A stretch of DNA of 64,000 nucleotides from Romanomermis culicivorax (taxonomy: Eukaryota; Nematoda; Enoplea; Mermithida; Mermithidae), in the NCBI GenBank assembly GCA_963922205.1, contig CAWUHX010000385.1, positions 62,001 through 126,000 on the forward strand, read 5' to 3'. Positions 14,129 through 56,100 of this stretch are shown here, piece after piece. Under the pieces are notes generated by a model. The model did not search any database, was not told the origin of the DNA, and was given only the letters and a program-made list of their open reading frames with translations. The number at the start of each line of letters is the position of its first letter. Position 1 is the stretch's first letter. The position numbers were made by a program, and so were the translations under genes.

Positions 14129-14480
14129 TAGTAATGGTAGTAATAGAAAGTAAAATAAAAAACGAAAAAATAAAACAAAAGAAACAGCAAACTCCCAGCA
14201 TCGCATTTATGCTCGAAGATTTGATGGTTATGACACAACAGTTATTTCATCATCAAAGTCAAAGCTGGAAACAAATCCAGTTTTCTTTATCAGCTCACAT
14301 CCAGTTTTTCTCGGTTATAATGTGCAATTTTCATTCTGTTCTAGTTTATGTCTTTCAATCAGTGTCCTTCCTTATCTCCAGGTAATAATTTTTTGCCTGG
14401 AATATTATTTTCCTACCCCGTATACGTCAAACTATTTCGTGCCAATCATTTTTCATTATCTATCTGCGTATGACTATGAA

Positions 14481-20400: not shown

Positions 20401-23400
20401 AAAACACTTACGATGAAATTTTGTTGTTTTATAATGAAAATTTTTAAATCCTATGTGAAAAAGCCTGGAGCATCTATAAAATTTTGAATGCTGCAACATC
20501 AATAAAATGTATAAAATCTTACTGACCACTAGTGAGAATTACTGTAACTGTCATAAGGTGTATACTGAAACAAAATTGTAATGTATCTGTGACATATTTT
20601 GCTGACGTCAAAACTTTCACTAATACTGCGTGATTTTTTGTTTAGCTGTGTCGAATGCCGACGGTTTTCGACGACCAATGCCCAATGCCTGGTCCTACTA
20701 CCCCACATTATTCATGCCGACGCCGCAATACGATCATAGAAAATTTTTCGATCGCTTCAATTCTTTTTGCACGGATTTGAGCCAACTGTTCGTCTATAAT
20801 ATGCTAGTAGATTCTATCCTTTATTGGCATCATTCCAAACATCATAAGGATATTAGTTCTTATACATTGGATCATCGATCGGAAATATTGCTGGTCGGTT
20901 TCCCGACTACGTTGGATTACGAACGTCCCAGGGCGCGCGACATGACGCCCTTTGTGGGTTCCTGCAAGCAGCGGAAAACAACGGTCGAAATCGAGGATGC
21001 TGAAATTCGGAAAATGGTCGAAGATCCGGCGTCCAAAGGGACGATTGTTATAGCTTTCGGGCATATGGTCACATGGAAAATGGCTCCGGAAATCGTCAAA
21101 AAAAGTTTCGTCGAGGCGTTGAACATGTTGAAAGATTACAGGGTCATATGGCAGTATTCGGAAGATGTGGAAAGTCTGAAAGTTGGGAATCACGTGAAAT
21201 GTATGCCCTGGATACCGCAGGTAAAATTGTAGACGGACATTAGACATCTGACAGGGGATGTTCTCCAAGTGTAAATTATAAAATCATAGGTGTTATAGGT
21301 AGTCTCAACCCAAGTGAGTGATTACCAAGTGAGCGATTCCCTACTGAGCGATTCCCAAATGAGTGATTTCCAACTGACCGATTCTAAATTGAGCGATTCC
21401 CGATTGAGCGGATTCCTAAGTGAGCGCATTCCCAATTGAGCGATTCGCATGTCAACGATTCCCAGTTTAGCGAATTCCCAAGTGAGCGAGTTCTCAATTG
21501 AGAGATTCCCATGTGAGCGATTCTCGATTGAGCAAATTCCGGGATGATCGAATTCTCAATTGGGCGATTCCAAACGACCAATAAAGAATGCATTAACATG
21601 TTCTTCAAATTTTCCTTCTTTACCTTATATTTTTCTTTACCTTATATTTACCTTATATTTTTCTTTTTATATTTTCTTTACCTTATATTTTTCTCTTTTT
21701 TATTTGGTTCGGTGTGTTGCAATTATGTTTTCGTTTATCTTTTTGCATTTTTATCTGTTGTCTCTGCTTTCTTTCATTTTATTTTTTCTTGTCATCTACT
21801 TTTTTCTGTTTTGCTCATGAAACAATGCATTACAAGTTGTCATTTTTAATGAGCATTGTCTCCAAATATAATTGTTATACTATTCGGCACGCTCTATTTC
21901 CTATTTAATTTTACCATTTGTGATTTTTTCTTCATTCTTATCTACTTTTCATCTTAGTTTTTTGCTTTTACTTCTTTATCTTCATCTTTTTCTATTCTCC
22001 CAATTCTTTCTTTCTTTACATTATTTTTTCTTTCTTCCTTGCTGCTTTCTCTATCTTGCTTTTTCTTTCTTGTCACTTTTTTCATGCTTTTTTCTTTTTC
22101 TTATGCTTTTCCACCTACTTTTACATATTCTTAATGTCTCCATTTTTGTTGACGTTTCGTTTCTCTTGATGTTTTCTTTCTCCCTGCTTTCTTTTGTTTA
22201 AATTTCTAATAAAGATTTTCACATTCACAACGATGAAAGACTCAAGCATGCTGAAATATTCAAGAATTATACGGGAGACTACGGTTGTGTAAGATGACAA
22301 CTTGTAATGTATTGTATCATGAACAAAAAAGAAAAACTTAGATAACAAGAAGGAATAACATCATGGAGAGCACAGACAAAAGATGAAAACGTAAAAACAT
22401 GCATAAACGAAAACATGAGCAATACACACAGAAAACGAAATAAAGAAGAAATACGCACAGAGAAAAATATAAAGTAAAAAAGAAAAATTTTGAAGAAAGT
22501 GTTATCACATTTTCGATCGCTCGTTTGGAATCGCCCAATTGAGAATTCGCTCATTTGGGAATTCGCTCATTTGGGAATTCACTCAATTGGGAATCGCTTA
22601 CATGGGAATCGCTCACTTGAGAATCGCTCACTTGGAATGGCTCATATGAGAATACCCCTTATAGGGCATTCGATAGCTCCCAACAACCTGACACTGATTA
22701 TTTTTGCCCATGAACCTCCTTTACACTGAAATTAGCACAACTGTGTTAGATTATCGAACCAATACCTGATCTCAGTAACTATAGCAGATGAGTGGAAAGC
22801 CACATAAGAAGTTTTTCAGTCTGATTCAGTCTGATGAAGAAATCTGATTTCGGACACTTTCCGATCTGTGAGCTCCTGAACTTCATCAAATTCAGAACTG
22901 CTTATATCATAGGGTATTAGAGATGAACGCTCTTCTAATGGACATTATTGTAATGCTGACAGTTATTCGTCTATGCATGTCTCAGCATCTTTTCTCGCTA
23001 TAGACATCAGCTATAGACGAACTTACTACTGTTGATCCCATTTATACAAATTTTTATGTAAATATGACGTATGGGCAAAAAATGCGCGCCTGGACATCAG
23101 AGTGCGGTGCTTAGGTTTAGGATTAGGCTTAAGCCGTAGGCATACTTAGCCGCAACGGGCGAAAAAGTCTGCGGCTCGCACACTTTTTTGCGGTTTTCAA
23201 AAATTGCGACCCGCAAGTCACCCGCAAAACCGCAATGCGGTTGCGGTTGGCAACCCGCAACCGCATTGCGGTTTAGTGCGGCTTATCGACCCGCAAAGAG
23301 TTCTCGAGTGGAGTACTTTTTGCGGTTCTGGCAGCCGCACTTGATACAGTATATGCCGTTTCGCGCTGAATAACACTGAATACCTGATCTTTATCAACTA

Positions 23401-27861: not shown

Positions 27862-28845
27862 AGGTGGCGCGGTAGCGTCAACCTATAATATACTTGGCCC
27901 CTGAAATCTGACTAACCCCCCTAGAGCAAAAACGGTTTTAGATAGAGGCATGAGGTTTTTTGCATAATATCCGCCATGTGGGCAAACATATGGGTGGCAA
28001 AGGTCATTGGGGTCTATAATCGAATGGAGCTGGTGGGGCGCCAAAAACATGCAAAAAAACGGCCTTTTTTAAAGCCAGCAGGTTCCTCAATGGGTATGTA
28101 TCCCTGGACCTTGATACTTTTACCCGTGCATCTATGAAGAGTCCACTCGAAGCGCTTTTTTCATTTTTTGAAAATACTGATTTGGTCAAATTATGAGTGA
28201 CCAAAGTTCGAGAAAATCTCCTTCGTTTGGGTTCAAAAAAGCATTTTTTTGGTGAAAAGACGTAGTGTTATCTGATTATCCTGAGTGTAAACAAATGTAT
28301 TTCAATGGTCTTATTGGGAAAGGACGTTTCGACTATAGGAATTCATTGGATGCGGTCGCTTTACACAAAAAACTATCCCGGTGTAAACAATTGTGTTTTC
28401 GTGATTTTTTGAGGAAGGGGCCTTCGACCACGGGGTATTCAATGAATGCAGCCACTTTACACCAAAAATTTATCCCGGCTGTAAACAAGCGTACTTTTGT
28501 GGATTTTTTTGGTAGAAGGGGTTTTCGACCGCGGAAAATTCAATGGATGCGGTCACTTAACACAAAAAAATATCACGATTGTAAAAAAGCGTGTTTTCAA
28601 GATTTTTTGGTACAAACGGTTTTCTACCGCAGGGAATTCGATGGATGCAGTATCTTTACACAAAAAAATATCCCGGGTGTAAACAAGCGTATTTTCAAGA
28701 TTTTTGGTGCGAGGAGTGTTTGACGGCGGGGAATTCAATAGCAGTCACTTTACACCAAAAAACTATCCCGGCTGTAAACAAATGTGTCTTTTCGGCATTT
28801 TTTGATTGAAGTAGTTTCCGACAAATAAATTATGTCCCGAGCAAA
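27862..28845. mobile_element. Minisatellite-bearing repeat element, copy B
   Basis: The head AGGTGGCGCGGTAGCGTCAACC (27862 onward, in part) matches copy A at 6636. It is followed by about five or six ~97-bp units with the (T)GCGGTCACTTTACAC mark at 28350, 28448, 28548, 28646 and 28740. The open frames in this stretch are periodic readings of the array. Confidence 0.7.
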
Positions 28846-31999: not shown

Positions 32000-34900
32000 T
32001 CACATGAATTGACTCGCAGCTCCTTTGGCGCCTGGCCCCGCTGGCTGTGGCGATGACGCGGGTCCGCCCACATAGGCGCTGGAGACCGCCTTAGTTCCTG
32101 TCGGCTGTGGTGTTCCGAGGGCTCCACTTACGAAAAGGCTGGATATGCCATGAGATGGGGCTGGCGGCGCGGAGACAACGGCATCTGAAAGGGTAAATTA
32201 TATCAGAAAACTCGGCCAATATTTTTCGCATTTTTAGAGATCAAATGGACAGAGGGTATTACAAGAAATTGATGCCATTTTAAAGCCTATCCTAAAGCCC
32301 AATAAGGGGCACCAAGTTTGTTCGTATTTCATAACTTCAAACGGGTGTCCTATGAACTTTACTTTAAATGATATTGAGGATAATTTTCCCATTTTATTAT
32401 GATGTAGTTTTGTCGAATACTGCAGCTTTCTTAGATGAAAACATTTCGGCATATTTGAATTGTGTGCAGATGTCCCGACGTTTTCGATCGGATAGATAGC
32501 GCCGAAAACCAACTGGTATCAACCTTCACGGGTCGATGAAATGTGCCCCCGCCCGTAAAAGTTTGTTTTTTCACAACCTCGAAAAATGCAAGAAACGTAA
32601 ACTGAGTTTAGGAGAAGCCCAGTAATGAGACAGAAATCAATCATGCTTTATAATTTGAACCAGGGCAACAAAAATCGTATTTATTTTGATTTGAAAACAG
32701 GTATAACTAACCAACAATTTGGATTTTTCAGACAACACCTTAGAACTAATAGTTTTGCTCAGAATTCTCACAAATTACCGTAGTTGTGAAATAGAGCTGA
32801 CGCCATAGTCTGAGACTTGGCGGGAGAGCAACTGAAAACAAACATCTGATTTTTTGAACCCATTGTTTGAAAATTGGAAATATTTTCAGAGACTGAAAAG
32901 AGATTTTACAATTATAATCGATGCAGCGTTCGCAGTTACGGTAAACGCAGCCTTACTATAGAGCAAGAAATCAATTTTGATACCCTTGAAATGGTTGAAA
33001 AGGGTGATCATCAAATAGTCCATTTCACCAAATAAAAATTTATCGAACAGAACCAATGAATGAAGTACAAGTTTATCATTGAATGTCCATTTCCCAGTGG
33101 TCTAAACCAATGAATCGATGTGAAGCTTACCAAAATTCATTTGGTTCTCTATGGACATGGCAGGTTTCTGGAACACTAGAGCAGTAAGATGCTGTGCAAT
33201 TATCTGCTTCATCTGTCACGCTTAAAAATACCAGTGCAAAACAATATGATCAGCGTAGAAACTAAATTTTCATGAAGAAAAAGCATCATATTTTTCCAAA
33301 AGATCTGTAAAATTTTGTGCTTTTCATACTGAAATGATAACACTTTCATGCACACCAACTACATCGGGCGGGTGATGGAAGTAGCACTAAAGGCTTTCAC
33401 GCGCCTAAGACCACAGGCCATGCAGAACCCTTCCAGCTGGATAATCAAAAACGTACTATTTCGAGAAAATCGAAAAAGTCAACACAATTCCGAGCTGAAA
33501 ACAGGAAACTGAAATACAAAAATCAAACAGTGAGCTCAATAATTCGGTTTCTATTATGACCAGCACAGTTGCTCAGTATAGGTATAGTTTAGAAACGCTT
33601 GATCTGATTAATATTTCGAAGAATCCCAAAACCTACATTGACTTGATCTAATTCGTCATTGAAAATGTCTAATCATCTTTTGGCTCATCGTTACAATGAG
33701 CAAGAAAAAGAAAATTCTGAAGAAATACGTTTTAAAGCACCTGCTAATCGATCCAAACTCTCCAAACAACGCTAGAACTGCTGCATCATCAGGAATTATG
33801 CTAATTGCGAATATGTTGATTTTTCTCCAGATTCATTGCTTGACTAAACAGCACATTTTTGAGATTAAACTCACGCCTTGTAAGGCGAGTACACGTTGAT
33901 AACGAGTTTAGATGTTGAAGACAGCTCTGTGGAATCATATGTACATAAAGTTCAAGCTAAATCAAATGGAAAATTGGAAATTCATCCATCAAAACTTGTA
34001 AGATTGCAATAAAAAATTCTCAAACTTACTGTATTGAACGGTAGTTTTCGGCTGACCCATGTATGCGCTGGCGCCTCCCATTCCTTGCCCTGTCGGCGTT
34101 GTAGCAACTCCGGGTGATCCCATGTACGTGCTGGGTCCGACTGGTGACCCCATGTAGGCGCTAGGAGCGCCTATTCCTTGTGTGGGCCTTGCGCCGATTC
34201 CGGGTGAACCCATGTAGGCGCTGGGTCCGGCTGGTGATCCCATGTAGGCGCTAGGAGCGCCTATTCCTTGCGTGGGCGTCGTGCCAACTCCGGGCGATCC
34301 CATGTAGGCGCTGGGAGCGCCTATTCCTTGCGTGGGCGTCGTGCCAACTCCGGGCGATCCCATGTAGGCGCTAGGAACGCCTGTTCCTTGTGCGGGCGTC
34401 GAGCTGCAAACACCGGGTGATCCCATATAGGCGCTAGCTGCGACTGGCGATGCCATGTAGGCGCTGGGAGCGCCTATTCCTTGCGTGGGCGTCGTGCCAA
34501 CTCCGGGCGATCCCATGTAGGCGCTGGGAGCGCCTATTCCTTGTGCGGGTGGCGTGCTGCAAACACCGGGTGAGCCCATATAAGCGCTTGGTGCGATTGG
34601 CGATGCCATGTAGGCACTAGGAACGCCTATTCCTTGTGCGGGCGTTGTGCCAACCGCGGGCGTTCCCATATAGGCGCTCGGTGCACCTGAAATAGAAGTT
34701 CGTCTAAAACAGCACGTAATCCACGGAATGCTCACTCATACTGTCTTTCAGTAAGACAGTGGATCCAGTAACAAACCTTCATTCAACTATGGGTGTAATG
34801 CATACATGTTCCGTTTCTTACCCATCATCGGTTGACCCATGTACGCACCCGGGGCTGCTCCAACGTTGGCGGGCGGGCTGGCAATTACGTTTGAACCGCC

Positions 34901-35983: not shown

Positions 35984-35987
35984 GCAC
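35984..35987. repeat. Target-site duplication, left (GCAC)
   Basis: The four bases just before the 5' LTR are repeated just after the 3' LTR at 45260-45263, as expected from integrase-mediated insertion. Confidence 0.85.
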
Positions 35988-36871
35988 TGTAACGTACCTG
36001 CTAAAGCAGTACTGTAAACATGTAGTATACTGTACATAACAGACATTTATTAGATATTACTTTATTTTCACATTTTATCGTCTCAAGGATGTCTGGGATT
36101 CACACCCAAACATTCCTACAAAATTACGTGAAGTACTTTATTTTGATCCGTTCACACCCCGGTAGCCCAATTAAGATGCCCTAATTAATCTGCGCAAACG
36201 GCAGCTGTTCCCCTAGAACCCACACTAAACTACACATTCCACAGCTACCGTAATCCCCCGTAAAAATCGTAAACAACACCTGCACACAGTAAAATGCGTA
36301 GAAGCCCCGCCGTACAGTAGTCTCAAGTGTAACAGTAGCGGCGGCCCCACAAAACATGTGTATACAGAGAAACCGATACAGGAAGCATGCACAGAAGCAC
36401 AGAGGTGTGGCCAAGCCCACCGTAGAAAGCAAGCAAAGCACAGAAAGCATACCGTACTAGAAAAGCACTAGAGAGGCGTAACTAAGTAAGCATAGAAAGC
36501 GTAGCCGGAAACGACGATTGGCGGAAGAAGATGGACAGAAGCTCGACCTCCCGCAGCGTCCAGGGAGTGGCCAAAATCGCCGCATAAAAGAAGAAGCAAA
36601 GCGTGATTTTGATCATTATATTCTGATTCTTATTCTTGTGTTTTTCCGCGCTCGCCCCGTCTTTATACATTTGCAAGCGGCCGACTATTCGAAAGCATTT
36701 AAACCGAGGCCCCCATCCGTTTTTATTCGAAGCGCGTTTTATTTGTCGACGTTCAAGCGACCGTCGAATTACCCGTTGTTTGTTGTAGCCGTTCGTCCCA
36801 TCCCGTTATTGCCCTCGCCGTAACGCCGTTGGTTGAGAAGTAAAGTACCTCACTCAAAACTGGTCGTTACA
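35988..36871 (+). repeat. 5' long terminal repeat, 884 bp
   Basis: It begins TGTAACGTACC and ends GGTCGTTACA, giving a 7-bp terminal inverted repeat (TGTAACG/CGTTACA). It matches 44376-45259 at a constant offset of 8388 bp without indels, and I saw no mismatches where I compared. The short open frames inside it occur in both LTRs and are not taken as genes. Confidence 0.95.
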
Positions 36872-36877
36872 TATTTT

Positions 36878-36895
36878 TGGTGACCGTACCGTTAC
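36878..36895 (+). promoter_or_regulatory. Candidate primer-binding site
   Basis: TGGTGACCGTACCGTTAC starts six bases after the 5' LTR. The leading TGG would pair with the CCA end of a tRNA. I could not identify which tRNA. Confidence 0.5.
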
Positions 36896-37114
36896 GTTAA
36901 CCAGTGGAACTCCCTGCCCCCAATCAGGTGTACTCTTATCCGGGCATTTAGAAGCATTAGTAATACAGTAGTAATCATTTCCTACAGTAAGACAGTATTC
37001 GCATTAAGCAAACTGGAAACCCCCTCCAACGAGACATTAAGCGATACATTTAAACGAATACAGCGTGAAGCAAAAATTGAAGCATTTAAGCAGAAATCCC
37101 ATCGTAAACCAAGA

Positions 37115-38858
37115 ATGACCCACCAAACGCAAGATCATTTAGGAGAAATCGTTAGAGAACAGATAAACGATTTATTTTCAGAACATTTTCGTACCCTACG
37201 CACACAATTGAATCAGAATACAGTAAACCCTACCCTAATAGACGATCTAAGAACAGCAAACATTCGTAATAACATGGCAAACAATTTCTACGCGAAACCT
37301 ACAGTATTCACGGGCGGCGTGACCCAACATTTTGGTGAATGGAACAAAAGATTAGAACAATTCATGGCACTCCAAGGCATGAAAGATACAGACGTACAGT
37401 TAAAGTTGGCATGTTTAGAAATTCATTTAGGAGGAGCCGCATTAGCAAAGTTCAAAAGTTTAGCAAATTCCGAAAACCCTCCCCACACATACGAGCAGTA
37501 TAAAGTCGCATTACAGACATTTTTCCCAAACAATAGAGATAATGAGCTACATCAACAATTCTTACGCGAAAGAAAACAAAAGCGTTCAGAAACAGTAACG
37601 GAATTCTTATTTGATCTAGAACATCTCGCAACCCTCGCCTACCCTAACTTTAACACAGACGCACGAGAAATGATCATAAAACCCCTCTTTGTAGAAGGCA
37701 TGCAAAACGAAATCAGGGAAGCAATTAAGTATAGAAGGTTCGCGACTCTAAAAGAAATGTCAGACGAAGCAGCTTACATTGAACAGCAAATTCTTAGAAA
37801 TGAGTTAAAATCTAACGTCCTTCCCTTCATACCCCCAAAACCCGAACCCATCTTTTCACTAACCAAAAATACAGACCAACAGGATCTTTTGCATCAGTTA
37901 GAACAGCAAGTAAAAGATTTACAGTTGCAGATCAAACAAAAACCTCAACCCCCACAACAAAGTAACTACAACAATTTCGGTAACAACACTTACAGTAGGA
38001 ATAATGCTTACAGGAACAATACCACCCCCAGGCAACCCACATGCTTCCAGTGTGGACAAATCGGACACGTAGCTCGTAATTGTAAATCAGTAGGCACCCG
38101 AAAATCATGTGCAATCTGTTTCCGTAATAATCACAGTACACGTGATTGTAAAAGCCCATGCATCCACTGCTCCCAAACAGGACATAGATCAGATAACTGC
38201 CCTTCAAAACCCCACTCCAATTTTCAATGTTTTATATGCAAGCAGAGAGGTCATACAAGCAGGTATTGCCCAAATCAGCAAAGTCGTAATATTCAAAATT
38301 GCATTGAGTACAGGCAACCCCAACCCCTCAGGGACATTGATGATCCCGCATTTTACTCAAAATTACCCGCCATAACTAACGGCCCTCAGACTACTTTAGG
38401 AACTATCATGCCCAACACCCACCGCCGCAGTGACGAATACGTCCTTAATCTGGACGTGCCCGATTGGTGCGCCATGTTACCACCCCCCACGCCTGAAGCC
38501 GAAAAAATCGAAAAATCGCCGCCCACCATCCCCGTAGGCTACAAGATCCCCCGAAAGCAAGACACAACGCCGCCCACCGCCCCCGAAACCCCGTCGAAAA
38601 CAGGTCGCAACTTGTTATCCCTCCTCCATGGCCTGACCCCTGCACCCTACCAATTTCGCCCCCGCCAAACATTGCTACCGACCCCAACAAGTAAGCAAGT
38701 CCAAACCCCATCCCATAACTCAACTTCTAAAGTTTTACAGACCGTTCAGATTTCAAACCGGCCACCCCCCCAGCCCAAAATCGCAAAACGACAACACCAA
38801 AAACCGCCACGCCAAATCGAGCAGAACGAAAAAACACAGTACCCCGCCGCCTCCAATA
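37115..38858 (+). other. Gag portion of the polyprotein
   Basis: The N-terminal ~240 residues have the retrotransposon Gag capsid pattern (WNKRLEQFMALQGM, then LKLACLEIHLGGAAL, then FLRERKQKRSETVTEF). A Gln-rich spacer follows, then four zinc knuckles with intact CCHC residues at 310-323, 332-345, 349-362 and 372-385. The remaining ~200 residues are Pro/Thr/Lys-rich and of unknown role. Four knuckles is more than the one or two usual in Ty3/gypsy Gag. Confidence 0.85.
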
Positions 38859-41800
38859 AAACAGTACATTGGCCATTGTATTGTATTTTTCTTTGTATAA
38901 TAATCCCCACATCGTGTAGTGCCCAATTTCAGATGTGTGGAACTTCATTGAGCGGTCACTCAGTCAGCATACCAAAACTTGTATCATGCATGCCCCCTTC
39001 CACAGTAGACAAACCCGTACAAACATTTGGAAAAATCTATATCCCCTCCACTAAGCCCCACATTACAGACGCATACAAATGCAGTGTTCGCAAACGCAAA
39101 ATTTGTACTAATACAGGATTTTTTGGATCAAAAGGTATTGTCTTCGACCAAACCGAAATGCAAAATCTAACCCCACATGTTTGTAAGGCAATCGTTATAG
39201 ACAAAGAACACAACGGTCAAAAATTGTACGAAACCCAACCAGGATTTTGGTCAACAAATAACTCCTTAAGCGTAGAATACACATGGTGTTGTACAGACCA
39301 TTGTACCTCAGTCACTAACGTCATCATAGAAATAGGACAAATAGCATCTTGGAATGGAAAATCTATGACAGGTACATTAGGCGACCTAGGGTCATGCAAA
39401 CCGACATCAGGTCATTGTGTCACAGCCGACGGATCTATTATCTGGAATGAAACAGCATTTGAAAACTTATGCCCTTTCCAATACAAAAATACACATCCCA
39501 TAAAACTCACGCCAACCCACATGATAATAGAAGAACTACAAGGTGCATTCTCGGTTAAAAATACAGTTTTTTCGAACCCCAATTGCCCAGAAATCCAAGA
39601 TAGCATTCTAACCGAACAAGGCATTATTGTACAATTAGACAAAAACACACCACATCGTAATGCATTTTTAACCCCAAAAACCAACGAAACTCATACTACA
39701 CTATACGATTTCGATGATTTTGAACCCATCAATGCAAAACTAAACTATCTAGCAGACAAAATACAGGAATTCGAAATTCAAAATTTCAAAAACGTATGGA
39801 ATGAATTATGCAGACAGGCACAGCGTCACCTTGATCTCGTATGGCAAATCTTGCGTCTTGATGCAACCCTTGGAGCGCGTGCATTCCTACAGCGAACCGA
39901 CATCATAGCAGAATTTACAGGAGAAGCCCTCACAGTCTGGCCTTGTAAACAAGTAAATGCATCTAAAATCTTTTACAACCACAAAATCAACCAAACATGC
40001 TACAAACTTTTGCCCATTCTCGTAGGAACTGAACTCATGTTTTCAAATCCAGGAGGCAACGATTTGACCCCTTTTTCACAAACAGTTGACTGCCATCACA
40101 TGCATGTAGCCCTTTACAAACAGAATAATACATGGGTCAGTGAAACAGGATCCCCGCATGTCACAAATTTACCTTTAGAAATCGTCTGGAACCAAAATTT
40201 CTCCCTTTTTCATTTTAATACACCCGCCATTTTTCATGATCAACTTGCAACTATTTCAACCAACTTACTCTTTTTGAAACAATACATTTACAAAACTCAC
40301 ACACTCGAAAACATTGTCAAGAAACTCGTCAATTACACCGCCCAAATGTCTCTCAATTCCGATACAGTTTACAACATGATCTCAGGCACTGGTCAAGCAC
40401 TCGGAAATACACTCTCTGGCGCCGGTCAAGGCATAGAACATGTAATAACCGGTACCACCCAAAGTCTCACGGACGGATTAAACAATTTACTCAAAGGACC
40501 CCTGCAAATCATTATCAATCTCGCCGTTATTACTGTAGTTATTGCAGGCGTCTTTTATACGTTTCTCGTTCTTCGAAAATATTTCCCCTCTCCAAAGCGT
40601 CATGCCACAAACGAACATGCATACGAAATACCATCAAACAACAGACATTTACATGAGACCATTCCCCCATCATTCGGCCATGCTCTCTTAGAATTAGCTA
40701 ATCGTCGTGGGGCACAAACACAGCAGAAATACGTCCTTGTCGATATCGATACCCCCCGAACTCCTGCAATCGAACTCATTAATCAAATTCAGCAATCTGC
40801 ATCAAATAAGCCACCCCAAAACGTACCTGAGAAACATACCCCTCATATTCCAATCACACTTAACGGCAAATTAATGACAAAAGGCATGATTGACACTGGT
40901 GCAGTTTACTCACTCATTGATTCCCGAATCGCTCAAATCCTACAGTTAGACATGAAACCCCCGCTAGTCCAAGCCAAAGCAGCAAATAATCTCCCGATTC
41001 ACTTTGTAGGAACCACTTTTGTCACGGTGACAGCCCAAACAATCCAGGAAACAATCATGGTCCATGTCCAAAAAGATTGCACAGCAGACATCCTCCTAGG
41101 CAAAAACTTTCTCAGTCGATTTTCGGAATACACTATCAACAATCAAAAATCACAGGTCAAATTTGGCAATGTTATACTACCTTGTGATGGCCTAGAATAT
41201 AGCCCTCTTTCAACTCGTGATGGAACTTATTTGGACGAAAAATTAGAATTACCACCCCGTACAGTAACCGAATTTACTGTCCCCTTGCCCAAATCGTACT
41301 TACAGGTCAAACAGCTTGAATTCACCCCAAAACCCAAACAGAATCCCAAAGTCCATTTCGCAGCTTGTATCTCGGAAAATCAAAACAGTCGCATACGCAT
41401 ATCGGTCCTAAACACACAAGAAACAGCCCAAATTCTTTACCCTGGAACATGCATTGGTACAGTCTCCTGTTACATCCCGAAACAAAATACTCCCGCTAAC
41501 GTAACCCCTTCCACGCAAAACCAGCCCAACCGTTTTGATACATTCACATGGTTAAAAGAAAACGTCAATTTAACCTCGAGTGACCTCACAGAAGCAGAAA
41601 AAATGCAACTCCTACGCGCCCTATCGAAGTACCCTGCATTATATGCTAAATCCAAAATGGATGTAGGTAGAACCACCCTCGTTTCACATACAATTGACAC
41701 CAATGGCTCCCAACCCGTACGTAGACAACTTTACCGGACTTCCCCAAAAGAAAAGCAAATCATACAAGCAGAAGTTGAGCAACTCGCAGCAGCAGGTGTC

Positions 41801-44344
41801 ATAAGCCAAAGCAATTCCCCATGGTGTACCAACACAGTTTTAGTTCCCAAAAAAGATGGAGGCCATCGTTTATGCATTGATTTTCGAGGCCTCAACAAAG
41901 TCACCAAAAAAGATACCTACCCCTTGCCCCGAATAGACGAAATTCTAGACACCCTACGTGGAATGAAATATTTTACGTCCCTTGACCAATCCAATGCATA
42001 CTATTCCATTCCCATAGCACAAGCAGATAGAGAAAAAACGGCCTTTAACTGCTCAGCCGGCCAATATCAATTCAATTACCTCCCTTTTGGACTCACCAAT
42101 GCCCCAGCCACATTCCAAAGGTTAATGGATGTTATCCTCTCAGGTCTGCAATGGAACACATGCCTTGTGTATCTCGACGATGTTTTGGTATTCGCAGACT
42201 CCCATGCCCAAATGCTGGAACGTTTAGACACTATTCTTGCCCGATTCTCACAAGCAGGCCTTAAGCTAAACATACAAAAATGCAAATTCTGCCAGCCCCA
42301 AGTCCAATACTTAGGCCACGTCATTTCCCAGCAAGGCATTTCACCAGATCCCCATAAGGTACAGGCCATTTATGACATACCCACACCCAAAAGCTCAAAA
42401 GAAGTTAAGTCATTCCTTGGCCTACCCTCATATTATCGCAGATTCATCCCAAATTGCTCCCAAGTTTCTAGCCCACTCACATCGCTACTCAAAAAGAATT
42501 CCGAATTTTCCTGGGGCCCTGAACAGCAAAACGCATTCACTAAACTCAAAGAATTACTCATCCATGCCCCAATACTACAGCATCCCGATTTCACAAAACC
42601 ATTTATTCTGCAAACTGACGCCTCAAAACTCGGAATCGGCGCCATTCTCAGTCAGCTAGATAGTAAAGGTCAGGATCGCCCCATTGCTTTTGGGAGCCGC
42701 ACATTGAAACCCGCAGAACGCAACTATCCGATCACTGAGTTGGAAACCCTTGCAGTAGTCGAATTTGTCAAGTATTTCCGCCCTTATCTTTTCCAGCAAC
42801 ATGTTATTGTACACACTGACCACACAGCAGTTCAGGCAGTCTTACAAAAGGAAAACCCGTCCCCTCGCATTGCCCGTTGGGGATTAGCCCTCTCCGGTAT
42901 TCAGCTAGACATTCGACCTAAGAAAGGCACTGCTAACCGCAACGCAGATGCAGTTTCTCGATTCCCCTCGCAAGCAGCAAAGCAATCCTTTGATATTGAG
43001 CAATTAGAAACCCGCCCCGAAATATCAACTATCCATTCAGTTTTGGAAGCCGAAGCAACTGAACAAGAAGAGCAACAGAAAAACTTTGCCGAACTCCAAC
43101 GCACTGATCCAACTGTCAAAAGTATTTTAGCAAAAATCGCCCAAAAACACCCCCTCACTCTGATCAAATTCGCAGTACATCAAAACATTCTCTTCCGTAT
43201 AGTCGACAAACAGGCAAAACTATACATTCCCAAGTCCCAAGTCCAGCATCTCATCGCCTCGCATCATGACAGCAAGTTCACAGGTCATTTTGCGGCCAGG
43301 AAAACTTTACACTTGCTCAGACAGAAATACTTTTGGCCTCAAATGAGCCGTGATGTCAAACGTTACTGCAAAACCTGTCACCCATGCCAGACACAGAAAG
43401 CTCTTAGACACAAAGTGCATGCAAACTTGGTACCAATTCAGCCAACTGGCCCATTTGATCGAGTCGGTGTTGATTGCATGGGACCGTTACCCCTCACTGA
43501 AGACGGCAACCGATTCATTGTCGTTTTCATCGATTACTTCACAAAGTATGTAGAGGCATTCCCGACCCCCGACATCACTGCAGCAACTATTGCCAAGCTA
43601 TTCGTAACCAAAATTGTTTGTCGTCATGGGTCCCCAAAAATCATCCATTGTGATCGTGGCACCGATTTCGTATCCGATCTCTTCTCACGGATCACCAGTT
43701 TATGCAACACTCAGAAAATTCACACTACCCCATATCATCCCATTGCCAATGGAGAAGTTGAGCGTTGTAACCAAACCTTAGCCACCCGTATCCGCATGTA
43801 CATCAATTCAAATCACACTGATTGGGATACTTATCTCCCGTACGCCGTTTTTTCGATCAACATTCACAAAAATGATAGCACATCATATCCCCCATTTGAA
43901 TTACTCCACGGTAGACAAGCTAATCTTCCGTCAGACGCAGCTTTAAATTTTTTCCCCACGTCCTACATGGTTGATTTAGACGATTACGCCCTTCGTGTAA
44001 AATCGCATTTTACAGAGGCACTCTCAACCGTGCAGAAAAGTTTGCAAAAAGCCCAAGCCCATTACACCCGTCAGTATAACAAGCATGCTCAGAACATACA
44101 TTACAAAGCAGGTGATCTTATTCTATACAAAAATCATTCGTGTAAACAAGGGCTGACTCCCAAATTCCTCCCTCGCCAAAACGGACCCTATACAGTCACA
44201 AATTTCATGTACCCCAACGTTACACTCAAACACCCCCATAAGAATATTACATTTACGGTGCATGTAAACGAGACAACCCCTTTCTACCCTCGGAAAGCAG
44301 CTAACGAGTCTACCCCCACCCTTCCTCAACCTCGAAAGCCTTGA
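37115..44344 (+). CDS. Gag-Env-like-Pol polyprotein, 2409 aa
   Basis: One ATG-to-stop ORF fills nearly the whole internal region. Domains in order: Gag capsid-like region (about 30-240); four CX2CX4HX4C zinc knuckles (310-385); a Pro-rich linker; a hydrophobic signal-like segment (586-603); a Cys-rich, N-glycosylation-rich ectodomain (about 605-1125); a transmembrane helix (1132-1153) with a basic tail; an aspartic protease (IDTGA, D1260; DILLGKNFL); a reverse transcriptase (YLDD, 1686-1689); RNase H (TDAS, D1835; then E and D motifs); and an integrase with an HHCC zinc site (H2050/51, H2058, C2085, C2088) and DD35E triad D2120, D2180, E2216, followed by a GPY motif. There is no internal stop or frameshift. 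How Env-like and Pol products are made from one frame is unknown. All catalytic residues seem intact. Confidence 0.93.
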   Translation: MTHQTQDHLGEIVREQINDLFSEHFRTLRTQLNQNTVNPTLIDDLRTANIRNNMANNFYAKPTVFTGGVTQHFGEWNKRLEQFMALQGMKDTDVQLKLACLEIHLGGAALAKFKSLANSENPPHTYEQYKVALQTFFPNNRDNELHQQFLRERKQKRSETVTEFLFDLEHLATLAYPNFNTDAREMIIKPLFVEGMQNEIREAIKYRRFATLKEMSDEAAYIEQQILRNELKSNVLPFIPPKPEPIFSLTKNTDQQDLLHQLEQQVKDLQLQIKQKPQPPQQSNYNNFGNNTYSRNNAYRNNTTPRQPTCFQCGQIGHVARNCKSVGTRKSCAICFRNNHSTRDCKSPCIHCSQTGHRSDNCPSKPHSNFQCFICKQRGHTSRYCPNQQSRNIQNCIEYRQPQPLRDIDDPAFYSKLPAITNGPQTTLGTIMPNTHRRSDEYVLNLDVPDWCAMLPPPTPEAEKIEKSPPTIPVGYKIPRKQDTTPPTAPETPSKTGRNLLSLLHGLTPAPYQFRPRQTLLPTPTSKQVQTPSHNSTSKVLQTVQISNRPPPQPKIAKRQHQKPPRQIEQNEKTQYPAASNKTVHWPLYCIFLCIIIPTSCSAQFQMCGTSLSGHSVSIPKLVSCMPPSTVDKPVQTFGKIYIPSTKPHITDAYKCSVRKRKICTNTGFFGSKGIVFDQTEMQNLTPHVCKAIVIDKEHNGQKLYETQPGFWSTNNSLSVEYTWCCTDHCTSVTNVIIEIGQIASWNGKSMTGTLGDLGSCKPTSGHCVTADGSIIWNETAFENLCPFQYKNTHPIKLTPTHMIIEELQGAFSVKNTVFSNPNCPEIQDSILTEQGIIVQLDKNTPHRNAFLTPKTNETHTTLYDFDDFEPINAKLNYLADKIQEFEIQNFKNVWNELCRQAQRHLDLVWQILRLDATLGARAFLQRTDIIAEFTGEALTVWPCKQVNASKIFYNHKINQTCYKLLPILVGTELMFSNPGGNDLTPFSQTVDCHHMHVALYKQNNTWVSETGSPHVTNLPLEIVWNQNFSLFHFNTPAIFHDQLATISTNLLFLKQYIYKTHTLENIVKKLVNYTAQMSLNSDTVYNMISGTGQALGNTLSGAGQGIEHVITGTTQSLTDGLNNLLKGPLQIIINLAVITVVIAGVFYTFLVLRKYFPSPKRHATNEHAYEIPSNNRHLHETIPPSFGHALLELANRRGAQTQQKYVLVDIDTPRTPAIELINQIQQSASNKPPQNVPEKHTPHIPITLNGKLMTKGMIDTGAVYSLIDSRIAQILQLDMKPPLVQAKAANNLPIHFVGTTFVTVTAQTIQETIMVHVQKDCTADILLGKNFLSRFSEYTINNQKSQVKFGNVILPCDGLEYSPLSTRDGTYLDEKLELPPRTVTEFTVPLPKSYLQVKQLEFTPKPKQNPKVHFAACISENQNSRIRISVLNTQETAQILYPGTCIGTVSCYIPKQNTPANVTPSTQNQPNRFDTFTWLKENVNLTSSDLTEAEKMQLLRALSKYPALYAKSKMDVGRTTLVSHTIDTNGSQPVRRQLYRTSPKEKQIIQAEVEQLAAAGVISQSNSPWCTNTVLVPKKDGGHRLCIDFRGLNKVTKKDTYPLPRIDEILDTLRGMKYFTSLDQSNAYYSIPIAQADREKTAFNCSAGQYQFNYLPFGLTNAPATFQRLMDVILSGLQWNTCLVYLDDVLVFADSHAQMLERLDTILARFSQAGLKLNIQKCKFCQPQVQYLGHVISQQGISPDPHKVQAIYDIPTPKSSKEVKSFLGLPSYYRRFIPNCSQVSSPLTSLLKKNSEFSWGPEQQNAFTKLKELLIHAPILQHPDFTKPFILQTDASKLGIGAILSQLDSKGQDRPIAFGSRTLKPAERNYPITELETLAVVEFVKYFRPYLFQQHVIVHTDHTAVQAVLQKENPSPRIARWGLALSGIQLDIRPKKGTANRNADAVSRFPSQAAKQSFDIEQLETRPEISTIHSVLEAEATEQEEQQKNFAELQRTDPTVKSILAKIAQKHPLTLIKFAVHQNILFRIVDKQAKLYIPKSQVQHLIASHHDSKFTGHFAARKTLHLLRQKYFWPQMSRDVKRYCKTCHPCQTQKALRHKVHANLVPIQPTGPFDRVGVDCMGPLPLTEDGNRFIVVFIDYFTKYVEAFPTPDITAATIAKLFVTKIVCRHGSPKIIHCDRGTDFVSDLFSRITSLCNTQKIHTTPYHPIANGEVERCNQTLATRIRMYINSNHTDWDTYLPYAVFSINIHKNDSTSYPPFELLHGRQANLPSDAALNFFPTSYMVDLDDYALRVKSHFTEALSTVQKSLQKAQAHYTRQYNKHAQNIHYKAGDLILYKNHSCKQGLTPKFLPRQNGPYTVTNFMYPNVTLKHPHKNITFTVHVNETTPFYPRKAANESTPTLPQPRKP
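38859..40660 (+). other. Envelope-like glycoprotein portion of the polyprotein
   Basis: It starts with a hydrophobic leader at residues 586-603 ending in a plausible signal-peptidase site (SCSA/Q). The ectodomain has about twenty cysteines and at least eight N-X-S/T sites. It also contains a helical segment, LNYLADKIQEFEIQNFKNVW, followed by a Cys and an R-x-FLQRTDI stretch. A Gly/Ser/Thr-rich membrane-proximal stretch precedes a single membrane helix at 1132-1153. The helix plus Cys plus DIxAxFxGEAL pattern reminds me of glycoproteins of chuvirus/mononegavirus type (class III fusion proteins), which some invertebrate retroelements have captured; this is a family impression, not a search result. 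It could also be a distinct captured glycoprotein. No clear furin site was identified. Confidence 0.7.
40840..44344 (+). other. Pol portion: protease, reverse transcriptase, RNase H, integrase
   Basis: The protease has its DTG triad at D1260 and the second LLG motif about 60 residues later. The reverse transcriptase shows LCIDFRGLNKVTKKDTYPLP, LPFGLTNAPATFQ and YLDD. RNase H shows TDASKLGIGA, ELETLAVVEF, HTDH and NADAVSRF. The integrase has its zinc site, the D-D-35-E triad and a GPYTV motif. No chromodomain was seen. These enzymes convert the RNA into DNA and integrate it. Confidence 0.93.
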
Positions 44345-44362: not shown

Positions 44363-44375
44363 GGAAGGAGGGAAA
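44363..44375 (+). promoter_or_regulatory. Polypurine tract
   Basis: GGAAGGAGGGAAA abuts the 3' LTR, 18 bp after the ORF stop. This is the expected plus-strand primer position. Confidence 0.9.
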
Positions 44376-45259
44376 TGTAACGTACCTGCTAAAGCAGTAC
44401 TGTAAACATGTAGTATACTGTACATAACAGACATTTATTAGATATTACTTTATTTTCACATTTTATCGTCTCAAGGATGTCTGGGATTCACACCCAAACA
44501 TTCCTACAAAATTACGTGAAGTACTTTATTTTGATCCGTTCACACCCCGGTAGCCCAATTAAGATGCCCTAATTAATCTGCGCAAACGGCAGCTGTTCCC
44601 CTAGAACCCACACTAAACTACACATTCCACAGCTACCGTAATCCCCCGTAAAAATCGTAAACAACACCTGCACACAGTAAAATGCGTAGAAGCCCCGCCG
44701 TACAGTAGTCTCAAGTGTAACAGTAGCGGCGGCCCCACAAAACATGTGTATACAGAGAAACCGATACAGGAAGCATGCACAGAAGCACAGAGGTGTGGCC
44801 AAGCCCACCGTAGAAAGCAAGCAAAGCACAGAAAGCATACCGTACTAGAAAAGCACTAGAGAGGCGTAACTAAGTAAGCATAGAAAGCGTAGCCGGAAAC
44901 GACGATTGGCGGAAGAAGATGGACAGAAGCTCGACCTCCCGCAGCGTCCAGGGAGTGGCCAAAATCGCCGCATAAAAGAAGAAGCAAAGCGTGATTTTGA
45001 TCATTATATTCTGATTCTTATTCTTGTGTTTTTCCGCGCTCGCCCCGTCTTTATACATTTGCAAGCGGCCGACTATTCGAAAGCATTTAAACCGAGGCCC
45101 CCATCCGTTTTTATTCGAAGCGCGTTTTATTTGTCGACGTTCAAGCGACCGTCGAATTACCCGTTGTTTGTTGTAGCCGTTCGTCCCATCCCGTTATTGC
45201 CCTCGCCGTAACGCCGTTGGTTGAGAAGTAAAGTACCTCACTCAAAACTGGTCGTTACA
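44376..45259 (+). repeat. 3' long terminal repeat, 884 bp
   Basis: Copy of 35988-36871, with the same TGTAACG...CGTTACA ends. It is flanked on the right by GCAC. Confidence 0.95.
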
Positions 45260-45263
45260 GCAC
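45260..45263. repeat. Target-site duplication, right (GCAC)
   Basis: Matches 35984-35987 on the other side of the element. Confidence 0.85.
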
Positions 45264-50100: not shown

Positions 50101-53100
50101 CATATATAGCGTGAGCCAAAAAAACGCTACCGATACTGACTCTCATAGCCTTCAAACGGGTGAAGCTTTTTTAATGCGGTTTCCTGCCGTCGATAGATAA
50201 AACATCTGGCATAAAAACGACAGTTTCAGGCAGAACATTCGAACATTGACTGACTAAAATCACAGATACTAAACGTGGATTTTTTGGAAATGAAAAATCG
50301 ACAAAAATTGACAATATCGACATGTTTTACAGCAGAAAAGTACAATAGATCCAATCATAAGAACCATATAACAGCTGCAAACTACAAGAGAGCCGTTTTA
50401 GTGTGTCCTACTTTCTGTTTCACCAATAATTTTAATCGTTTTTCGATCTGGTCAATGACAGAATCGATTTTGCTTTAATTTTGCTTTTTTCCAATTTCAA
50501 AACAAAAGCCCTTGATTTTGGCGAAATTTTGCCCATATCGAAACAAGAAATTGGTGACTTTAAATTACGTGTAAATTACAGATCTGTGTGATTTTTATAC
50601 TATTATTGTGTGTAAATAGCTTTACAAATTTTTTTTCACAATAGGACACTTTTTACTTTGATTTCACAACTTTTACTTTTTGAAAAATGACCACTTTCAC
50701 TAAATTTCTGTTTGTACAGTGACCATAAATGTTAGGAGCATTAAATTTGGCCCTTGTAACAGAGACAAACAGGGCATTATAATGCAGCATCCGCATTATA
50801 AAAGCTTCATTCGTTCAAAAGTTACGGAAACCAGCACCAGTCGCCTTTTTTTGACTCATCCTGTACAAAGAAAGAAGTGAAGAAAAATCCCTACATATGA
50901 CGCGCTTTAAAAATTTTCTCACTTTAGAGGCCAACATTAGTAAAAACGATGAAATGATAAGAGAAACGTTAAAACTAATAAATGAAAAAGTTATGAACTA
51001 ATTCTTTGTTACCTTCTTTTTAAACTCAAATACAGGCAATGCAACATCCAATATTCGAATTTTGTTCCAGTGCCTTCCAATTCCTACTTTTAGATTTTTT
51101 TTGTATTATTATTTCCCAATAAACACTAAAAAAATTTTTTTGATGCTAGAACTTTTAAAATCGGATGTGTTGTTAAATCAAACTCAAATTTTTAGGACAG
51201 AATTTTTTCAAGTGTAAATTCTGAAAGTGTGCGTTCTGTTTGCAAATGTCGATTTAGTATTCAAATTCTGTTTTGTTTTCCAATTACAAGCATCAGTTCT
51301 TGGAATAAACTCTAGCAAGAATGAAATGCCTGAAATCGAAAAATACCATCAAAAATTTTGGTTTCGGTTCTACAATTCTCAGTCCTACGACTTCGGTTTT
51401 GGAAAAAATGGGGATTTCGAAGGCTTCGGTTAACCGAACATGCCTAAAAAATCAGTTCCATGAATTCGCCTTTATTTTTCGAACAAAATCCTATAAAACC
51501 CTCTCTTTGGTTTAAAAAATGTGAGCAACGTACCAATAAAAGGATATAAATGCGATCTGCAAAAGTACTTACTTGATTTTTATGCATCACTTTCTGAAAA
51601 TGGCACGGTCTGTTGATCGTGCGATAAGTACACTCAAGTTTGGTCGCGCTTCCTGTCGTTACAATGCCCTCCGCTTGGTCGACGAATTCCCTGAATATTT
51701 CGGGCACCTCCGCATCGTACAGGGTTTTTTCGTAATCGGTCCAATTCTCTTTGCCCACATTCCAATGATCAAATTTACCTACAAAATGTACAAATTTAAG
51801 AAATGAATAATTGAAAAATGTTTACGGAATCCGAAGATAGTGAAAAAATTCGGAAAGGACGAGTGAAATTGTCGATGACTGATACAAAATCATACCTACT
51901 GCTTAAATCAATTTTCATTGCCACATTAAAAGTGCTAAAAAATCAAGTTAAAATCGCGAACGTAATTTTAAGATTTCACAAAAAAAATAAAAAAGTTAGA
52001 TTCACAAAGATGAAATCACCTTGATTGCAAAAAATTTGTGATGTGAAGTTTTTGATGACTCACAGTGAATTTCACATACGTTTTACGACAAAATCAAGCG
52101 AACCTTATCGGATTACGTGAATAATTTTTTATCAGCTAAAAAATATGATCACTTGTAGACTTTCTGATCGATTCGATAGTCGAAGAAACATCTCGGTCCA
52201 CCATTGGAATTTCTGGAACTAGGGTACCATCGCATCCTTCGAACGGGCATGGTGTCGAAATATCCGATTCGGGATCATGTTTCGATTGACGGGAGTCGCG
52301 GCAGATTTGTTCAGGGCACGCGACCCAGTAAATGAAGTTCTTGCACTTCGGTTTCAGACCCACCAGCTTCGAAGTTATTCGCATTAGCTTTCGGCATCCG
52401 TAATCCGTGCCCTGACATCCCTTAATCGTGACCGGTTTGGAATATTGACAGTCCACTAAAGCGTGGCCGACTTCGGGAAATGTCTGACCCAAATCGTTTT
52501 GGCACAAGGAAGGCGGCGAGCACAATTCCATATAATCCAAATCTTCGCAGCGTATACGATCTCCGGGGACCACTAGACGATTCATCTTTTGGCATTTGCC
52601 GTGTATGGTAAAACAGTGCTGCGACTCTTCGACTGTGTAAGTACAGTTTGCATCTGCCATGGAAACAAAGACGCTATGAGATTATTATGCACGTGGAAAC
52701 GTGTCTCAACAAACTTTGATTCAAGTTGAGGCGTCTGTCAGTTTCGAAAATAAGGAAACATTGGCAAAATTTGAAATATGTTATTTCAAACCACAAAATT
52801 TAACGTGGAAACCACTGTGGAGCGGATATTACATTTTTTCTGTGGGATCGCGTGCTGTTTTCTGACTGATTCGCGCTTAGATCATTCAAAACTTTAACAT
52901 ATTAACGTAATTTTCCAAAAATTTGCAGCGTTAATAGAAGAACATCAAAAGCACGCAACTTAATCGCATTCAGTAAGTAAAACACCGCTTTTGGTGAAAA
53001 AAATTCTTGCAGAAATTATCAACTTGGAACTCAGTGACAAGTTAAAGATCTGGATGTGACGATAATTGCTACACTAGGAAATTATGCTCATCCGCTCAAA

Positions 53101-56100
53101 TTTCCTAAAACGCTCTTTTACTGCTAGCCTGGCCTGACATAACTGAACAAACTCTAGAGATCAATCTAGTACTAGTTAGTTGGTTCCAAAATCGCCTTCA
53201 TGGTTGCCAAGGCCAAATTAGGGTAGGAAACCGGACGCTAGTGGATTTATCTCATAGAAAACAGACACGATGCCATCAAATCTGATTTATTTCAGAGTCT
53301 ATACTTTTAATGCGTTAGTATAAAAAAACAGCGTCAAGCTGTTGAAGGTAATACTCATTTTTTAATACTGTCAACTGGTCATTCAATCAAATTAACCCAG
53401 ACATAAACTTTGATTGAATGTTGGGAACAAGCTCATCTGGTATTGAAGTTACCTCATATGGTTTCGAGTTACTTCCAGTTGAACCTATTGTCCATCTGTG
53501 TGGCCTGACCTTTTTTGTGTAGTTTCAAAAGTAAAGACGTACCCACCCAACAAAGGGGTATATCATCATTACAAGTAACGGAGCTCTGGAGTCTGGAAAG
53601 ATCAGACGGACTTTTAATGGATGGGGTCATCGATCGTCGAAAATTTATCCGATAACGGTTTAGCAAAAAACATTAAACATTGTCCAAAAGACCATAAAAG
53701 TTCGTCTTTGTGGCGCAAGTGCCAAAAAATCGACATTTTTTGACCATTTTTTTGACTTTTTATTCTAAAAAGGTCCAGAAGAACAGTTACTCTGAAATGA
53801 TAGTTGATCTCACGACGAAGGGTTTCAAAGCGTAAATTCTGAAATCATACGTTGCATGCGATAGCTGACAACAACCTGAGTAATGTTATACCGACCACTG
53901 ACCACTTTTGCCGATAGGACAACGCTGAACTAAACTTTGCATTACTGAACCAAAAAATCGAGAGTCCAGCAAATAAATGATCTCAGAAACTATGTGGGGA
54001 AGTTGAAATTCGTATTCGTTACTCGCGCCATTTCCGATCGGCAGACTCTGAGCTTTTTCACGGTTCAGAACTTTGTATTTCAGGGGTAGTTGAGTGAGCT
54101 AACAAATTTTCAGTAATATGTTACGCATAGTTTACCAGAAAATCTTTAAAATGTGCAATACTGCTTCCTTTTCTAATATTATTATTTGCAAGCATTTTAA
54201 GAAAGAGACTGCGTAGGATTCACAACACAATTATCTGATTAATGCAGATTCATTGTTCATCAGTTACTGACATCGGCTTTGTAGACCACATTCATGCAAA
54301 TTAAAGAGAAATGGTCTATGGGTAAAATGATTAATCCCCCATTACTTGCATGAATACTATGAATTTGCACATCTGGAGACCTTCTCTCGTCAAGCACATT
54401 GAGTCGGATTAATGGGATCGTGGTTGGGTCCGACTAATTTGGGTCGTGGGAAGTGGGGAGGAGACTCCCATTGCGGTCGGATCGGAACCAGTGCCCATAT
54501 ATTAGTATTCGGCACCTTCGGTTACCCTCAACTCGAAAAATTTGGCAAAAATAGATTTTTGGGAAAATTTCCTAAATTTTCACCAAAAATTAGGCTTTTT
54601 GGGATTTTGTAAAAGTTGGTTACCTCAAGAATTTTCGGATTTACTCACCAACCTACCGTTCACAAGTATGTTTGACCCTCACTTCTGTCTGAACAAAATC
54701 ATGAGCATCCTAAATATATACCAAATCCATTGGAACACACTCATGGATTTTAACCAACAGCGATCAGCTCACCGGGGCCGATTTTTACTTTCCAACGTTG
54801 GTCACTTTCGTCCACCATCGGAGTTTTGGGAATTTGATCACCACATCGTTCGGCCGGGCACGGTCCCGTAAGATTGAAGCGGAAACATTGCCGATCGTTT
54901 AATCGAGGTTCGTAATCTTTGACTCTTAGACATTGACCTTTTACAAGAACGCACGACCGTCGTTCGACCGCCAAATAATTGCAATCGAAATCGGGCTCCA
55001 ATTGCTCTACAGCGAAAGGAATTTTTTGACTGTCAATGCATTCTTGTTCTTCGCACGGAATTTCGGGCTTTTGTTCGGGGCATAGAATAGAATCGATGCG
55101 AGGACTTAGGGTCAATTTTCGACTGCACTTTGTTTTATTCCGATCAAATACGCACCGACGGCCATGGGTGACGAAGTATCTACACTCTGGACGGAGTACA
55201 AGGCCGGGTATACCTAAAAAATATGGAGAAAATGGTTGTGACAAAACTTCAGAGAGCTGTGACAAGTAAAAAAATAAAGCCCCACCTGAAGATAACATGC
55301 TACAGCAAGACAAAAGCTGAGATTTCCTATTTCTACACATTTTTTTCGAAATTTGTCTCCCTGAAATTTTTTCAAAATTGAGCATGCAGTTTTCAGGAAT
55401 GGCAACAATAAGACGGTGGTCTGCCACTCTGTATACGCAATTCATTTTGAAACGATCGATGCAGCCAGGTAGCAATCAAACTTTTATTCAAAATTATGGC
55501 AGGCTCATTGAATCTATTCAATGAATTTTCCCTTCATGATGAATAGCCCTTGATGATCACTCCTTTCAATCGTTTCAAGATTATCGAAACCGATTTCCTG
55601 ATGTCTAATGGCTGCCGAATCTCCGACACCTGTATCCATTGAATTCCCCTCAGTCGAAAACCCATTCCCCAAAAATTCCAGAAATACATTTGTTTACACT
55701 CATGATAATTTTTTTATGTAAAATGATCGCGTCCATTGAATTCTCTTTGGTCAAAAACCCCTTCTATCAAAACACAATGAAAATACGCTTGTTTACACCC
55801 GGATAACTTTTTTGTGTAAGGTGACCACATCCGTTGAATTCTCCGCAGTCGAGAACCCCTTCCCCAAGAAGAGCACGGAAATACTTTTGTTTTATACACA
55901 GGATAATTTTTCGTGTAAAGTGACCGCGTCTGAACTCGTCGCGGTTGAAAACCCCATACACCAAAAAATCGCGGAGATACGTGTGCTTACACTCAATATA
56001 ATTTTTTGTGTAACCCATGCTCGAAAACCCTTGCACCCTGGAAATCCCAATAACACTACTGGTTAAATTGAAACTGCAAAAAATTCTGACACCGTAGTGC

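Follow-up and report, generated by a model that had tools for sequence, protein, structure and literature searches.

Long terminal repeat (LTR) retroelements that carry an envelope (env) gene have been described with env behind the polymerase genes (pol). In the Metaviridae, according to the profile of the International Committee on Taxonomy of Viruses (ICTV), Env is encoded, where present, downstream of integrase, and the earlier BEL/Pao env genes of Roo, Tas and Cer7 are also placed downstream of the polyprotein (PMC7642597). Here, a different order is described for an element found in 64,000 nucleotides (the window) from the mermithid nematode Romanomermis culicivorax (contig CAWUHX010000385.1, positions 62,001 to 126,000 of the forward strand). 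This is probably a young, many-copy element of the Ty3/gypsy type, with a chuvirus-like, class III-type glycoprotein between Gag and protease, that is made as one Gag-Env-Pol precursor threading the membrane of the endoplasmic reticulum (ER).

Among single polyproteins that include Env, the closest known parallel is Atlas virus, a hookworm member of the Belpaoviridae (PMC9094657), which also comes from a nematode and also has an uninterrupted polyprotein, of 2828 residues. It differs in its Gag-Pol-Env order, its class II, phlebovirus-like Env and its BEL/Pao polymerase. Anakin (PMC7642597) is likewise an LTR element that captured a chuvirus-type glycoprotein, but it belongs to BEL/Pao and its host is a mosquito. 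Cer1 of Caenorhabditis elegans (PMC10309623) shares with the present element a nematode host, a relation to Ty3/gypsy and the lack of a stop between gag and pol. The env of Tas, from Ascaris, is weakly similar to herpesvirus glycoprotein B (gB) in one account (PMC9094657), a likeness also seen here, and is called phlebovirus-derived in another (PMC7642597); Tas differs as a BEL/Pao element with env downstream of its polyprotein (PMC7642597).

Type III fusion glycoproteins occur in gypsy elements of mosquitoes, which share them with BEL elements and with RNA viruses (PMC13172572). In a survey of Jingchuvirales glycoproteins, two are recorded in Nematoda and Gypsy fragments are found beside such glycoproteins in insects, with no clear capture by Gypsy or Copia. 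Drosophila MDG1 elements have a small fusogen-like open reading frame upstream of gag; this case shows that a fusogen gene need not lie at the 3' end, although it is not of the kind seen here. A full-text literature search returned no paper with a gag-env-pol order, nor did a search of titles and abstract openings, Chary and Hayashi (2025) being outside that scope. As far as the literature tells, the new features are the position of env and the single frame, since a type III glycoprotein in gypsy elements was already known.

Anatomy of the element and order of its domains

A frame of 2409 codons, starting with an ATG at 37115 and ending at 44344 on the + strand, was flanked by LTRs and forms part of a complete LTR element, with the following features.

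35984..35987, no strand: target-site duplication (TSD) GCAC, 5' side
35988..36871, +: 5' LTR, 884 bp, TG...CA, no difference from the 3' LTR over 884 bp
36872..37114, +: leader, 243 nt, without ATG, with a single donor-like GTAAG at 36987
37115..44344, +: one open frame of 2409 codons for Gag, Env and Pol
37421..37642, +: Gag capsid region, PF03732 Retrotrans_gag, residues 103-176, Pfam E 1.8e-05
38042..38269, +: four CCHC zinc knuckles, residues 310-385, starting at residues 310, 332, 349 and 372, zf-CCHC E 9.5e-10 plus motif positions
38691..38740, +: candidate 50-nt intron GTAAGC...TTTTACAG in the gag tail, spacing conserved, hypothetical
38867..40597, +: envelope-like domain, residues 585-1161, predicted class III-type fusion glycoprotein by sequence profile
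38870..38926, +: putative internal signal-like leader, residues about 586-604, by hydropathy
39680..40222, +: core match to PF24664 Monjiviricetes_fusion, residues 856-1036, E 6.2e-19
40508..40573, +: predicted transmembrane helix, about residues 1132-1153, at the peak of hydropathy
40850..41119, +: aspartic protease (PR), PF13975 gag-asp_proteas, residues 1246-1335, E 2.3e-08
41843..42325, +: reverse transcriptase (RT), PF00078 RVT_1, residues 1577-1737, E 4.7e-39
42512..42895, +: RNase H (RH), PF17919/PF17917, residues 1800-1927, E 5.6e-39 and 1.5e-37
43226..43402, +: integrase (IN) zinc-binding H2C2, PF17921, E 1.2e-21
43463..43741, +: integrase core, PF00665 rve, E 8.1e-09
44180..44191, +: NGPY, motif of the GPY/F type close to the C-terminus of integrase
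44363..44375, +: polypurine tract, 13 bases
44376..45259, +: 3' LTR, 884 bp, TG...CA, identical to the 5' LTR
45260..45263, no strand: TSD GCAC, 3' side

The Pfam matches followed one another along the frame as Gag, CCHC, Monjiviricetes_fusion, protease, RT, RNase H and integrase. An earlier note, made from the letters alone, had proposed a single 2409-codon frame with zinc knuckles at residues 310-385 and then a leader, an ectodomain, a membrane helix, protease, RT, RNase H and integrase, and had added that env follows pol in known elements. The ATG frame at 37115..44344 (+, 2409 residues) and the four CCHC knuckles, detected both by motif and by Pfam, agreed with this, the order was recovered by Pfam together with hydropathy, and the statement on known elements is supported by the ICTV profile and by the Gag-Pol-Env order of Atlas virus.

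The flanking LTRs, TG...CA ends, TSD of 4 bp, within the usual 4-6 bp, and polypurine tract are those of Ty3/gypsy elements (Metaviridae), and Pol had the PR-RT-RH-IN order with Ty3-like sequence, as judged by similarity to solved structures and Pfam. The best solved match of the RNase H-integrase part was the Ty3-G polyprotein (7q5b), which came second for RT behind 4ol8, an entry named only RT/RNase H that we take to be the Ty3 enzyme. The GPY/F motif marks Metaviridae integrase, according to the paper on Troyka; an identity with Troyka itself was rejected, as that element has no env, CG...CG ends and a 3-bp TSD. LTRs, 4-bp TSD, CCHC Gag, PR-RT-RH-IN order and GPY/F-type motif are thus shared with Metaviridae, errantiviruses included, whereas env, which in the env-bearing members of the ICTV profile is downstream of integrase, here (585-1161) precedes protease. 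The best reading of the sequence is a Ty3/gypsy-type LTR retroelement or endogenous retrovirus, and a Ty3/gypsy-type element is here combined with a known glycoprotein family in an order absent from the family's reference description.

A TGG located six bases past the 5' LTR is a candidate primer-binding site, for which the window offers no tRNA gene for comparison; neither RNA families nor tRNAs were detected in the 64 kb. The predicted fold of the leader RNA was no more stable than those of shuffled sequences. The coding strand of the element between 38001 and 44000 was strongly A- and C-rich, with a GC skew of -0.27 to -0.30, unlike its surroundings.

The envelope-like domain, its copies and its relatives

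The middle region matched PF24664 with 67.8 bits, well over the curated cut-off, which is 27, and PF00606 (herpesvirus gB) with 15.9 bits, under the cut-off of 43. With E values up to 10 accepted, Pfam gave viral fusion glycoprotein families only and no Gag or Pol family for this region, and the idea that the region belongs to Gag or Pol was rejected on that basis. Among solved structures, nine chains with E values of 10 or less were found by a profile of env made from five relatives. The eight top-ranking chains (E 0.0038-0.038) comprised seven named herpesvirus glycoprotein B and one named ORF8, presumably gB too; the ninth was a ribosomal protein. We take the PF24664 proteins and gB to be both class III, and these sequence profiles suggest a class III fold for env.

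Hydropathy was followed along the frame in four pieces, and the top windows started at residue 1132 (2.41) and residue 590 (1.59), with every other window listed at 1.09 or lower. These two windows coincide with the leader (586-603) and the helix (1132-1153) proposed in the earlier note, whose envelope-like assignment of the region was also sustained by the profile comparison, that is, by the PF24664 match, the lack of a Gag or Pol family and the gB chains heading a weak structure search.

To find further copies, the genome that contains the window, 359 Mb in 595 contigs, was searched with the env piece, and 76 places were scored out of 4212 first-look candidates. All 76 were 97-100% identical, 75 had an env without a stop, and in 39 of them the stop-to-stop frame reached at least 2409 codons. 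Ten further copies, picked from this env-ranked list and all with long frames, each had an exact 4-bp duplication (10/10) and an LTR-LTR identity of 0.9944-1.0. Across these ten copies the LTRs (L031-L050) measured 870 to 905 bp, the two LTRs of one copy agreeing to within 3 bases; the length differences between copies suggest subfamilies.

As copies should not be chosen by their env, the non-coding leader was also used as query, which gave 40 scored places (the window included) out of 1085 candidates. Twenty were fetched, 8 of them also in the env list and 12 not. The gag end was present in all 20 and was followed by a full env in 19, the remaining copy (L059) matching 332 env bases only. The whole PR-RT piece was reached in 17 of the 20, whereas the match extended through 1183 of its 1500 bases in L060 and through 238 in L057. 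The ten copies with exact duplications are separate, recent insertions, and the element is young and present in many copies. Further copies with the gag-env-pol order, for which the earlier note had asked, thus exist (19 of 20 with full env, 17 through PR-RT). An assembly join or a rearrangement of a single copy, which that note had considered, deserves practically no credence: the env was found in 76 of 76 places at 97-100% identity, on many contigs, the ten insertions examined for their ends all had target duplications, and a relative exists elsewhere. Because there are many separate copies, assembly error and chance were excluded, and the join was rejected on the many-contig copies with 4-bp TSDs.

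Selection was estimated from the ratio of nonsynonymous to synonymous differences per site (pN/pS), as plain pairwise counts uncorrected for relatedness. Over 19 leader-chosen copies plus the window, with L059 left out, env gave a pN/pS of 0.080 (pS 0.111, pN 0.0089), and PR-RT, with two more rows left out, gave 0.068 over 17 copies plus the window. The value of 0.44 for the gag end was unreliable, being inflated by indels. A set of 15 copies with long frames, ranked by their env score, had a pN/pS of 0.053 in env, 0.067 in PR-RT and 0.213 in gag. Some decay was present among the 19 leader-chosen copies, with an env stop in 1 and env indels in 5. During the spread of the element, env has been constrained about as tightly as the polymerase. 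The 3' end of gag was more variable than env or PR-RT in the copies L001-L030, a set ranked by env score.

Outside the genome, proteins were searched with env plus PR-RT as query, scoring env alone among the 7996 candidates that shared most words. The one protein found, a frame of 1424 residues (P0008) on a 6278-bp metagenome contig, had the order env, protease, RT and RNase H. It was 41% identical to the env of the window over 567 columns and 42% identical to its PR-RT over 616 columns, colinearly and including part of the linker past the membrane helix, and its env piece had 16 of 16 cysteines in common with the window env. Since divergence was equal in env and PR-RT, the env-pol order appears to have been inherited together and not put together twice. 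Env had three other relatives: a protein of Romanomermis culicivorax with 52% identity across half of the query, one that is filed under a gammaproteobacterial metagenome-assembled genome, and a Joint Genome Institute (JGI) protein. An env protein search widened by alignment returned P0005-P0007 again, with nothing new and no named RNA-virus glycoprotein. Scans with env of the viral contig and genome contig collections, the scan of the viral contig collection with PR-RT and the search of the phage collection by protein gave no match. In the genome contig collection, PR-RT found one locus (L051), which ends in an RT match of 101 residues and did not match env.

Expression of the frame and alternative explanations

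In the window copy, residues 455 to 606 include no methionine, and in 24 of 30 env-ranked copies neither the 60 codons ahead of env nor its first 20 codons contained one. Env accordingly has no start codon ahead of its leader and, as there is also no stop between Env and Pol, one precursor is the simplest reading. We infer its translation, topology and cleavage from the sequence as follows. A single Gag-Env-Pol precursor would be translated, Gag being synthesized in the cytosol until the internal signal behind it directs the ribosome to the ER. Env would then enter the ER lumen and signal peptidase would cleave behind the leader, whereas the helix at 1132-1153 would stop transfer, so that protease, RT and integrase would be made on the cytosolic side. 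The element's own protease would release Gag and the enzymes. A precursor that spans the membrane would be a reasonable reading of this arrangement.

Flavivirus polyproteins are organized in a comparable way, with capsid, internal signal, glycoproteins and then enzymes in one frame; the likeness noted is one of layout, and flaviviruses are without reverse transcription. Such a layout would anchor both Gag and Pol at the membrane bearing Env. A more tentative proposal, possible but short of probable, is that the element represents a separate, long-lived lineage with gag-env-pol order and a membrane-threaded polyprotein of the flavivirus style, in which Gag and Pol are tethered to the Env membrane and assembly proceeds from one molecule. 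That a lineage with env ahead of protease has spread successfully to many copies, under constraint, shows that the env-after-pol order is not required, and offers a natural test of how the ratios of Gag, Env and Pol, and their topology, are set without a separate env start.

Several observations weigh against an envelope-bearing precursor. The gB matches were weak, none falling under the default limit of 0.001, so that a lax limit was needed, and the single env sequence found no solved structure even at E 10. As the structure matches were weak and the AlphaFold model of env was poor (pLDDT 39.5), the proposed class III fold rests on the sequence profiles. Hydropathy is the sole basis for calling the leader signal-like. 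The ectodomain had 8 N-X-S/T sequons compared with 6.0 in shuffles (p about 0.25), which is no enrichment; of the glycosylated ectodomain claimed in the earlier note, the potential sites therefore stand, at chance level, and glycosylation itself is only potential. A methionine near the leader was present in 6 of the 30 copies, the excess of Gag over Pol is not explained by the precursor model alone, and the listed frame of P0008 begins inside env, without the leader. The chance level of sequons and the single sequence without a solved-structure match would also suit the view that the middle region is no envelope but part of Gag or Pol, or a gene captured from the host. We regard this as very improbable, because Pfam matches at E up to 10 were viral fusion glycoprotein families only, gB-type chains lead the profile search, and the signal-like and membrane stretches lie at the expected ends.

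Two other explanations concern splicing. If the candidate intron at 38691-38740 were removed, the frame would shift and Gag would end just ahead of env, so that spliced RNA would give Gag only and unspliced RNA Gag-Env-Pol. Splicing would then set the ratio of the products, in a manner compatible with the precursor, and distinct RNA pools despite one open reading frame are described for BARE of barley. GTAAGC...TTTTACAG at 50-nt spacing was found in 29 of 30 env-ranked copies (the window included), and GTAAG...TTTTACAG at the same spacing in 17 of 20 leader-chosen ones; donor and acceptor letters were nearly invariant over the 30 copies, and the spliced frame would stop just before env, after 39 codons in 15 and after 37 codons in 12 of them. 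Against this, at least one such pair occurred in 34% of 300 shuffles, the spliced frame would enter env in 2 of the 30 copies, and synonymous variation at the site, analysed with L004, L014 and L027 left out, was on the low side without being extreme, with a rank of about 390 among 1563 windows. A precise loss of the intron was not seen in the 30 env-ranked and 20 leader-chosen copies, in which the motif pair was absent from 1 and 3, respectively. As shuffles often hold the pair and the synonymous sites are not exceptionally quiet, the intron is kept as a candidate, and its control of the product ratio seems unlikely. We consider somewhat more unlikely still that Env is made, as in retroviruses, from a spliced RNA joining the gag start or another exon to env, the uninterrupted frame being incidental. 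Such a splice could use the donor-like GTAAG that the leader contains at 36987, together with the acceptor-like TTTTACAG, which ends at 38740 and lies upstream of env; however, the leader has no ATG, the first ATG from 38741 onwards, counting all frames, is at 38933 and thus past the signal sequence, and no stop closes Env before Pol, so that the product would still be Env-Pol.

Other features of the window

Directly upstream of the element, a GC-rich stretch held a 248-codon frame of tandem repeats (33989-34735, -), with units around GAPSAYMGSPGVGTTPTQGI. Two exon-like frames at 14322-14774 and 20630-21232 (+) resembled, by eye, a UDP-glucuronosyltransferase gene, and two cysteine-rich frames at 52136-52660 and 54750-55475 (-) seemed, again by eye, to be secreted proteins of the host that are related to each other. 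Tandem arrays of units of some 98 bp, which look related by eye, were dispersed at 7222-8018, 28338-28781 and 55634-55925.
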